A stretch of 48,130 nucleotides of DNA from an uncultured Bacteroidales bacterium. Lineage in GTDB: Bacteria; Bacteroidota; Bacteroidia; Bacteroidales; Bacteroidaceae. The position numbers were made by a program, and so were the translations under genes. Each line of letters begins with the position of its first letter. Within the stretch, counting starts at the first letter, position 1. Of this stretch, positions 43,260 to 45,618 are shown piece after piece. The notes under the pieces are model-generated. The model was not told the origin of the DNA. It saw only the letters and a program-made list of their open reading frames with translations, and made no database searches. The stretch is from positions 1 through 48,130 of the forward strand of contig CACXKA010000016.1 in NCBI GenBank assembly GCA_902768125.1, read 5' to 3'.

Positions 43260-43705
43260 TCATTTCAACAATCTGAAACGCCTTTTCAGCGGTTCGAGTT
43301 CTTTCGGGTCGTAATCTGTTTCTCCCGTTCCGTTCAGCCAATTACTCATGTTCACTTTGTTCAGGTTGGTGCCAAAACGGTTATTGTACCATTCTGCATC
43401 AATTGGAGGCAACAGCACCTCTGCTTCCATCGCTGCGCGTTGGGGCATACAGCCTCCTTCACCAACTGGCAGAGCAATCCCAAGGCAGGGTACAGCTTCT
43501 CCTCGTCCGTGTAGCCCTCCTGCTTCGTCTCCTTCTTCTCGTGGCAATAGTTGTTCTGATTCTGGATGGTGTTCACATGTTGCGCTCCCGATGCCACATA
43601 CACCAGACTGATGTTGCATCCACGCTGATTTTGTTCCGTCTGTTGCAATTGTCGTAGCAGACGGCTGAAGAAGTCAAAGGCTTCCTCGTCCTTCTCACTT
43701 GTCAT
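43260..43705 (-). pseudogene. Frameshifted gene at the head of the accessory module
   Basis: The first frame starts at 43705 (MTSEKDEEAFDFFSRLLRQL) and is meaningful through ISLVYVASGAQHVNTIQNQN and YPALGLLCQLVKEA; the second frame continues with GCMPQRAAMEAEVLLPPIDA, EWYNNRFGTNLNKVNMSNWL and ends PLKRRFRLLK at 43260. They join if one base is added near 43450, for example a third G in GAGGC. The joined protein would have about 148 residues. I do not recognise it. It may be a true frameshift or a base-calling error; no slippery heptamer is visible. Confidence 0.7.
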
Positions 43706-43734
43706 TGTTGTTATATAAAAGGTTTTGGATTAAT

Positions 43735-43949
43735 AAAAAAACGGAGAGCGTGGACTGTGAATTGGGAGTATAACAAAGCCCCTCGGGTTTTAGCCCACCC
43801 ATTCGCAATTGTTAATACTGCCAAAGCCCACGCTTCCGTTTATAGGATGCGTGAGCAGGCAGCCGTCTTTACTTGCGAATGTCTATGTGAATGGCTAAAT
43901 TCGAGAGACTTTCAAGAAAGCTGTCGGTTGCTCCTTCTTATATTATCTT
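43735..43949 (-). ncRNA. Rod-shaped structured RNA with its own promoter and a T-run end
   Basis: From the promoter at 43955-43986 the minus strand would yield about 215 bases. Five helices stack into one rod, positions given as 5' arm/3' arm: P1 43902-43912/43775-43785 (11 bp, two G-U), P2 43893-43899/43789-43795, P3 43873-43881/43800-43808 (9 bp perfect), P4 43858-43862/43818-43822, P5 43849-43856/43826-43833, with a 15-base apical loop. Between P3 and P4 lies a nearly symmetric 10/9-base bubble, as in 6S RNA. An alternative stem pairs 43826-43839 with 43741-43755, right before seven T. It is either a 6S-type RNA (Bacteroidales-1 is a candidate name) or a switching leader of the gene at 43705. 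Confidence 0.65.
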
Positions 43950-43954
43950 GGGTA

Positions 43955-43986
43955 CAAAGGTAATGAGATTTCCCTATACGCCCAAA
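43955..43986 (-). promoter_or_regulatory. Promoter of the structured RNA
   Basis: On the minus strand TTTG (43983-43986) and TACCTTTG (43955-43962), exactly 20 bases apart, a full consensus match. No protein gene starts within 240 bases downstream. Confidence 0.75.
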
Positions 43987-44043
43987 TATATTCATGTTTT
44001 TTTATGGACTCATGGCGATTCTGTTGGGTTTTATTTAATATTA

Positions 44044-45618
44044 TTAATTGATTTCCGACAGTGTTGTTTTCATATCCTCTAACTGCTGCAGGAACAATTC
44101 GTAATTGTTGGAGAAGTAGTTGAGGGAGTTGCGCATGAGCTGCCCGTCAGGTGAAACGGTCACATAATGGGGAATGCCACTGAACTGTAGGAGTTCCATC
44201 AGCTGATCCAGTTCCTTCCGAGTGACGGGATAACAGTCGGCACCAAGCAGGTTCTCGCTGACATATTGTTTATACTCATCATTCGTCTCCGGATTATCCT
44301 CCTGTGCCACGAAAATGAGGCGCAGGTCGGGATTGTCTTTCAGACGAAGGCGCAATTCGAGACTCTCCTGAATGGCTTTCTTGCAAGGGCTGCACCACAT
44401 CGCCCAGAAGTCTATCAGCACGAACTTACCACGATAGGGAGCAATGATCTTCTCCAGCAACGCCTTGCCTTCACCCTCTGGAATCGGATAGGCAGGCGCT
44501 CTGTTAAACGTGGAGGCGAAGAGACGTTCGGCTTCCTTGCGCAATTCGGGTTGTGTGAAGCCGTCAATGGCACGTAGATGAACGGTGTCCAACGGCTCGT
44601 ATGATTTCTCATAAGCCCTGCGATCCTCTTCTGTCATTGTCGTATCCGCCATTGCTTGCGAACGGCGCAAATACGCCTCCTTGGCTGTCGTGAGTACCCC
44701 TGGCAGTTTCTGCATCATCGCCATCTGAGTCAGCAGATTGTCCCCATCATCCATCATCTTGTTCATCGCTTGTCGCAGTTCCTGAAGTTCTTCCGCATAA
44801 TACTGGAGCATCGTTGCGTTTGCGCAGACAGGTGTTCTTGCCAGATAATTAGCCAATGTGGAATATGCTGAGGAGACAAACATGACGGGGTCGTTCAATG
44901 GCAAATATTGAAGCGGGACATAGTATTCAGGGGCACACAGTTCAGCAAAATAAGTGCTGTCTGACAAGGAGCGCAGCAAGTCGGCACGAAACAATGAGCC
45001 GTGCCTACTCAAGAAATATCCACAAATAAAATCAAGAGCCTCTGCATGAGCCAGTTTCTGCTCATAGGAAGTGAAGTGTTTGGCATCAGCTAAGGCTTTA
45101 AGTTTATCAAGTGTCGTGCGAATGAGACTGTCGCAAATGGCTGTGTGGCGTTTCAAATCGCTCTTGTCTGCCAACAACATGCGGTATTCGTTCGTGAAAT
45201 CCAGTTTTTCTTTTAATAGGCGCTCAACTTTTTTTGCTGAACTCCCTGCACTATAGTCACAGTTCCAATGTCCGTCTGCATCTTGTTTCAGTTCCATCTG
45301 CAACGTCTCGCCTGGCACAAGGTAATACTGCACCTGCTCATTCTCGGAGAATGTCAACGTGTTGAGCACAGGATGTCGCAACAGCATTCGACACATGAAA
45401 CTGCCATCAGAAGCCACCTCTGCAATGCCATCCTTGGAGGCATTCGACAAAGCATTGTGCCATTGATAATCAATAGCCTTAGGCATGCAATCCGGATTCC
45501 CTCCCACTATCTTTCCGACAATGAATGCCGAATCCGTACGGAAGAACGGTTCTTTCTCTTGTCCCATTGCCACCATAGCGACAACCGCCAGCACGAAAGT
45601 GATAATTGTTCTTTTCAT
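44044..45618 (-). CDS. Secreted thioredoxin-like (TlpA-type) protein
   Basis: 524 residues. Signal peptide MKRTIITFVLAVVAMVAMGQ. A long N-terminal region (about 25-380) with a DUF4369-like beta part (FIVGKIVGG, LVPGETLQMELKQD) and helices, then a thioredoxin domain: RGKFVLIDFWAMWCSPCKKA with the CxxC near 408-411, cis-Pro in FSGIPHYVTVSPDG near 485. Such proteins reduce or isomerise disulfides in the periplasm. The next gene upstream is a paralogue that is broken; the gap between them is four bases. Confidence 0.88.
   Translation of the reverse strand: MKRTIITFVLAVVAMVAMGQEKEPFFRTDSAFIVGKIVGGNPDCMPKAIDYQWHNALSNASKDGIAEVASDGSFMCRMLLRHPVLNTLTFSENEQVQYYLVPGETLQMELKQDADGHWNCDYSAGSSAKKVERLLKEKLDFTNEYRMLLADKSDLKRHTAICDSLIRTTLDKLKALADAKHFTSYEQKLAHAEALDFICGYFLSRHGSLFRADLLRSLSDSTYFAELCAPEYYVPLQYLPLNDPVMFVSSAYSTLANYLARTPVCANATMLQYYAEELQELRQAMNKMMDDGDNLLTQMAMMQKLPGVLTTAKEAYLRRSQAMADTTMTEEDRRAYEKSYEPLDTVHLRAIDGFTQPELRKEAERLFASTFNRAPAYPIPEGEGKALLEKIIAPYRGKFVLIDFWAMWCSPCKKAIQESLELRLRLKDNPDLRLIFVAQEDNPETNDEYKQYVSENLLGADCYPVTRKELDQLMELLQFSGIPHYVTVSPDGQLMRNSLNYFSNNYELFLQQLEDMKTTLSEIN

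Follow-up and report, generated by a model that had tools for sequence, protein, structure and literature searches.

A rod-shaped RNA with two mutually exclusive pairings as a candidate switching leader of Bacteroidota

What is the function of a rod-shaped RNA that can also fold into a second, competing stem beside a T-run? The question is raised by positions 43735-43986, minus strand, of a contig of 48,130 nucleotides from an uncultured Bacteroidales bacterium (GenBank assembly GCA_902768125.1, contig CACXKA010000016.1), referred to here in its full length as the window. A preliminary description of this locus had offered two answers, a 6S-type RNA or a new switching leader. The second is supported by the absence of an Rfam match, by a covarying rod, by an alternative pairing with a T-run behind it that is conserved and covaries, and by a position between promoter and gene. 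It is rather probable from these comparisons that the RNA of the window belongs to an undescribed family of cis-acting leaders in Bacteroidota that would work as transcription attenuators. The parts on which the argument turns are the following.

43955-43986, minus strand: promoter TTTG-N20-TACCTTTG, by sequence match; its -7 box, TAnnTTTG, is common upstream of family members
43902-43912 with 43775-43785, minus strand: helix P1, from the fold
43893-43899 with 43789-43795, minus strand: helix P2, from the fold
43873-43881 with 43800-43808, minus strand: helix P3, from the fold
43858-43863 with 43817-43822, minus strand: helix P4, from the fold
43849-43856 with 43826-43833, minus strand: helix P5, from the fold
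43772-43914, minus strand: core of the rod, P1 to P5, as modelled by the covariance models R1 and R2; 136.1 bits with R2
43849-43856, minus strand: X, the 5′ arm of P5, GCTCACGC, which pairs with Y; its GCUCAC is nearly invariant
43826-43839, minus strand: Y, the shared strand, made up of the 3′ arm of P5 (43826-43833) and an extension; complementary to both X and Z
43741-43755, minus strand: Z, the second partner of Y, with 14 pairs; kept in the family
43735-43741, minus strand: T-run directly after Z, from the sequence; TTTT follows Z in 87 of 94 further copies

Folding of 43730-43950 (minus strand) gave a stable rod of -72.2 kcal/mol, as against -50.9 +/- 4.2 kcal/mol for shuffled sequences, none of which was as good in 200 (z -5.1). 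The five nested helices that had been read from the letters all appear in this fold, and so does the central bubble, although at 9/8 bases (43864-43872 and 43809-43816) instead of the 10/9 proposed. The fold also contains a pairing absent from the preliminary description, in which the 5′ end of the RNA binds the T-run together with a portion of the alternative element. The alternative stem is exactly as had been claimed: 43826-43839 pairs with 43741-43755 over 14 pairs, with one G-U pair and a bulged base at 43746, and the first of the seven T at 43735-43741 is paired inside it. The two pairings exclude each other. When the rod and its tail are folded together, the 3′ arm of P5 pairs with the 5′ arm (P 0.91), whereas with everything upstream of Y removed, Y pairs with Z before the T-run (P 1.0). 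No conventional short-loop terminator was found in 43600-44150 (0.5 in shuffles). The arrangement is beyond chance, as it recurs in about 200 related copies.

These copies were collected in several ways. A second copy, 72% identical, lies in the window's own genome, and BLAST matches were obtained in 11 of 101 genomes, the own one included, three of them comprising less than 60 bases of promoter or tail. Covariance model R1 was built from 11 copies and is restricted to the span from P1 to P1′, which leaves Z and the T-run outside it; with this model, matches came from 50 of the 399 family genomes and from 9 of the 393 order genomes. R2, built from the 50 matches of R1 (one of them a weak reverse-strand row), matched in 89 of 295 order genomes, four order genomes having at least 11 copies, and in 24 of 296 genomes of the phylum at E 1e-5. 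All of these genome tallies for R1 and R2 include the window's own genome, and the E-values of the models are rough owing to a shortened calibration. With R2, the own genome contains six places, one of them weak (E 0.005). Three further copies in this genome (loci L128, L129 and L130) stand before genes unlike those of the window, and at L041 two members (1239-1376 and 2747-2878), which by eye fall in different subgroups, lie 1.5 kb apart on one strand. The pattern of the tip hairpin occurs in at least 119 stretches of public genomes, and among the matches listed 100 hold the RNA. Of these 100, 98 are labelled as Bacteroidota or as groups that belong to this phylum; the hosts among the matches listed include Paraprevotella clara, Xylanibacter ruminicola, Alistipes muris, Belliella kenyensis and Flavobacterium. 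Among 15 genomes labelled as other phyla the RNA was found in none of 14, and the remaining one, a metagenome-assembled genome labelled Paenibacillus in which matches do occur, is suspected to be mislabelled.

The rod covaries strongly. In 93 distinct aligned matches, 38 of 43 rod pairs change on both sides, and the covariation score is 0.643, compared with 0.172 for shuffles and at most 0.109 for slid partners; this alignment was fitted to the structure and includes five reverse-strand rows. The result is the same in kind when 11 copies are simply aligned with MAFFT (0.322, as against 0.171 shuffled and at most 0.104 slid). The base of P5, GCUCAC/GUGGGC, is nearly invariant, and its U-G pair is kept in 83 of the 93 rows.

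The pairing of Y with Z, with the T-run behind it, is conserved as well, and it too covaries. At L038, L041 and L025 the letters of P5 are divergent and the element before the T-run differs in step; this joint variation was a first sign that both pairings are kept. In the 88 distinct members compared, the partner of Y lies a short way past the rod, mostly directly before T, and none of 2000 permutations of the tails was as good as the members' own combinations; for the 22 members with a divergent Y, none of 5000 was. Taken singly, members with a divergent Y often do no better than with foreign tails (a median of 27% of foreign tails is as good, and two members fall below the foreign mean), because many tails are alike. 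For variants of Y at positions -9 to -3, both X and Z are complementary in 39 of 84 cells (201 of 204 copies), a count that is biased towards pairing, since the partner in Z is taken from the best duplex. A further set of copies from outside the models was picked out by a tip-hairpin pattern that fixes X and Y, and 94 of its 95 were used. A Y:Z duplex of -9 kcal/mol or better is present in 94 of these 94, but in 33% of shuffled tails and in 42% of stretches 100-175 bases downstream, and TTTT stands right after Z in 87 of 94, compared with 5 of 91 in the stretch 100-175 bases downstream. Because the copies were picked by a pattern that fixes X and Y, they demonstrate the presence of Z and the T-run and not covariation. 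In folds of rod plus tail across members, X:Y has a probability of 0.92 and Y:Z of 0.0001, and the rod has a mean advantage of 16.4 kcal/mol; without the sequence 5′ of Y, Y:Z reaches 0.5 or more in 88 of 88 members. At the level of sequence and predicted folding, these comparisons establish how the RNA is built, that this build is conserved and that X:Y and Y:Z exclude each other.

The placement of the copies speaks to the choice between a free RNA and a leader. In the 161 of 204 copies that have 900 bases on both sides, an open reading frame (ORF) of at least 100 amino acids starts within 250 bases downstream on the same strand in 135, and a divergent ORF lies upstream in 18; the -7 box TAnnTTTG is found within 160 bases upstream in 107 and downstream in 14. 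By a looser rule, a sense ORF lies close downstream in 188 of 204 copies, with a median of 88 bases from rod core to ATG. The 16 copies without an ORF are mostly at the border of a contig or stretch, while L076, L078, L098 and L122 have room for one. The order of parts is promoter, five-helix rod with the X:Y tip, Z about 6-15 bases further on, T-run in most copies, and start codon.

The genes behind the RNA are very mixed. The 150 downstream proteins compared match 92 Pfam families, among them 17 with BspA-type leucine-rich repeats, 6 with dockerin, 4 with type IX secretion system (T9SS) tails and 3 with BACON, as well as two S24 peptidases, two HU-HIG proteins, a single EcoRI-type methylase, a single MAD2-type methyltransferase and others; no common pathway is apparent among them. 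A hydrophobic N-terminus follows 129 of 188 copies by a crude rule, by which the downstream genes would often carry a secretion signal. The preliminary description had, as one of its two answers, the RNA as the leader of an accessory module. It does sit before such a module in the window, but it is not specific to it, as the genes differ between copies.

A sequence of events can be proposed from this anatomy. While X:Y is intact, the rod would stand, RNA polymerase would pass the T-run, and the gene would be on. If X or the other 5′ arms were occupied or unfolded when Y emerges, Y would pair with Z instead, forming a GC-rich stem right before the U-run at which transcription would stop, with the gene off. 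The decision would be made by a factor, or by the state of translation, at the moment when Y emerges. Strand exchange may be made easier by the U-G pair that is conserved in X:Y, and in the many members where Z and the T-run can pair with the 5′ end of the RNA, this third pairing may compete as well. The diversity of the genes behind the RNA makes a general signal (a protein, a small molecule or the translation state) more probable than the product of the regulated gene. What weighs against an easy version of this exchange is how stable the rod is. Two exclusive pairings, one of them before a T-run, suggest an on/off switch for accessory and surface genes. On the wider proposal we are evenly divided: that this would be a phylum-wide class of signal-sensing leaders, placing promoters (at least 11 per genome in some cases) under a shared switch and terminating at the U-run through strand exchange at the tip of the rod, with joint control of accessory genes, namely those for leucine-rich-repeat and other surface proteins, restriction, S24-type proteins and mobile elements.

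Of the other explanations, the one that survives best is a free small RNA with its 3′ end at the T-run that works in trans: it might use Y, X or Z for this, for instance, or bind RNA polymerase in the way of 6S RNA, and the genes behind it would be read only by leakage. A very stable rod with a central bubble, a promoter of its own, a T-run and several copies per genome would all fit such an RNA. The close start of a sense gene in most copies (135/161; median 88 bases from core to ATG), the rarity of -7 boxes in the 160 bases after the rod (14/161) and the lack of a 6S match make it unlikely. The 6S-type RNA of the preliminary description is in particular not borne out, given no 6S match, several copies per genome and a sense ORF behind 188 of 204 copies. 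6S RNA refolds during the synthesis of pRNA, and because of this, refolding alone cannot separate a 6S RNA from a switching leader.

Somewhat less probable is a post-transcriptional leader, in which the rod would protect the mRNA or set its stability or translation, and a helix between the 5′ end and Z with the U-run would explain the T-run. Pairing of Z and the T-run with the 5′ end is indeed found in many members and in the fold of the window, and the members' own 5′ ends beat permuted ones (0 of 5000 as good). Short start-stop frames are also enriched upstream of the rod (143 of 201 copies, as against 76 in shuffles, over all subgroups), and are absent in many copies. Among them is a frame of ATG, one codon and stop, preceded by CCT, between promoter and rod (for example in L083, L086 and L093). 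Such a leader would, however, leave unexplained why Z tracks Y, and in folds a 5′ end taken from another member does almost as well as a member's own (158 vs 166 of 200). Pairing of the 5′ end with Z and the T-run into a closing helix is plausible, and weakly specific. Finally, a palindromic mobile DNA element (of the MITE or REP kind) spread before genes is very improbable, for although the RNA is a long imperfect palindrome in several copies per genome, some near contig ends, and gives weak reverse-strand matches, its copies are mostly well diverged, keep a fixed orientation and promoter-gene position without orientation-indifferent insertion, retain a strand-specific U-G pair in 83 of 93 rows, and preserve Z and the T-run, which lie outside the palindrome core.

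An attenuating leader remains the preferred reading, and the surroundings of the RNA in the window can be described with it in mind. The promoter at 43955-43986 is present as had been stated and is of the Bacteroidota type; its pattern occurs six times in the window, where 0.41 would be expected. A 52-base stretch with this promoter recurs at 98% in a related genome (L013 1501-1552) before another gene, without the box described below and without the RNA. The distance to the first ORF is also confirmed, its start at 43705 lying 30 bases past the T-run. Three further features belong to the locus.

44002-44013, minus strand: box ATGAGTCCATAA, upstream of the promoter; few changes across 14 of 14 copies in the window's subgroup
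43361-43705, minus strand: ORF behind the RNA, coding for the beginning of a small protein in which LVYVASGAQHV is conserved, from the ORF list and related proteins
43260-43619, minus strand: ORF overlapping the former one in a different frame, with the C-terminal part of this protein family, from comparison with related proteins

The box has four exact copies in the genome, one of them before a gene pair that lacks the RNA. At this place, L045, ATGAGTCCATAA is accompanied by a promoter of the same kind, and the gene pair is by eye MazEF-like. Read as a translated mini-frame, the box has 7 of 9 changes at third positions in the 14 subgroup copies (counted by eye), but it stands upstream of the promoter and also precedes another gene pair.

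The gene of the VASGAQHV protein behind the window's RNA is broken by a frame change (43260-43705, minus strand), and it is followed by genes for a weakly SSB-like protein (E 0.011), a protein with a BT4734-like N-terminal domain and an endolysin-like protein. At most BLAST loci with long matches, too, the RNA is followed by a small ORF on its own strand; at L014 a purine-nucleoside phosphorylase gene takes its place. The small proteins behind RNAs of the window's subgroup (loci L009-L041) have VYVASGAQHV as a common N-terminal stretch, and their C-terminal parts vary widely; none of five scanned gave a Pfam match above cut-off, and neither of two gave a PADLOC match. A profile of the first 59 residues matched 11 places in 8 of 399 genomes, all 11 with the RNA upstream, 5 of them outside the rows of the profile. 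A dedicated pair of the RNA and the VASGAQHV protein was nevertheless rejected, since the wider search found unrelated genes behind the RNA. An origin from a phage or plasmid was rejected too: the window's RNA had no match in phage sequences, member L081, the sole query searched there, had none in plasmids, the downstream ORF had no viral relative, and of the 14 viral contigs that carry the hairpin pattern among the matches listed, the RNA is present in only 2.

Few classes of cis-regulatory RNA are known in Bacteroidota, a main phylum of animal guts. If the reading is true, a leader that 89 of 295 Bacteroidales genomes possess, often more than once, would unite surface and accessory genes, the control of which is so far unexplained, in a regulon. 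With X, Y and Z conserved, the proposed switch is directly testable with few mutations.

No described family accounts for the rod. At gathering scores, Rfam reported only tRNAs in the window, and no family of Rfam 15 covers the rod in 20 related loci; in 43600-44100 there was no match at E up to 5, 6S and Bacteroidales-1 included. In eight related loci searched at E up to 1 the rod was again unmatched, and the sole match other than to tRNA was to DUF805b (E 0.025, below its cut-off), on the RNA's strand and downstream of the T-run. With RF01685 (6S-Flavo), the entire genome was without a match at E up to 1. In the accessible parts of the openly licensed literature (PMC8040213, PMC8143477, PMC7366714, PMC2864571 and PMC12632263 included) the family is not described.

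Several known systems resemble it in part. Bacteroidales-1, Bacteroid-trp and other Bacteroidetes motifs (PMC2864571) come from the same phylum and are structured, but gave no match at E up to 5; Bacteroid-trp is listed there as likely cis-regulatory (Weinberg 2010, PMC2864571). Two anonymous palindromic Bacteroidetes candidates with predicted terminators, HMP2_4205 (132 bp) and HMP2_1032 (106 bp), agree in taxa and length (Fremin and Bhatt 2021, PMC8040213); judged by their description, they may be fragments of this family, and no switch is described for them in the accessible text (PMC8040213).

Type III toxin-antitoxin systems, with ToxI before ToxN, share an RNA and terminator before a small ORF, but the present RNA lacks tandem repeats (no direct repeats were found in 43600-44100) and its downstream genes are not one toxin family. 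With 6S RNA (RF00013, and 6S-Flavo, RF01685) it has in common a rod of similar length with a central bubble and the capacity to refold; it is unlike 6S RNA in its several copies per genome, its adjoining downstream genes and its second partner Z with a T-run. In arrangement the RNA resembles transcription attenuators and "off" riboswitches with a shared strand, such as leaders of the trp type and the purine riboswitch, in which one strand likewise has two exclusive partners, the second with a U-run behind it, between promoter and gene. In this family the competing stem spans about 70 bases and rivals a whole rod, and the downstream genes are mutually unrelated; the structural marks of an attenuator or riboswitch leader are found in it, namely a sense position between promoter and gene and two conserved, exclusive pairings, one of which ends at a U-run.
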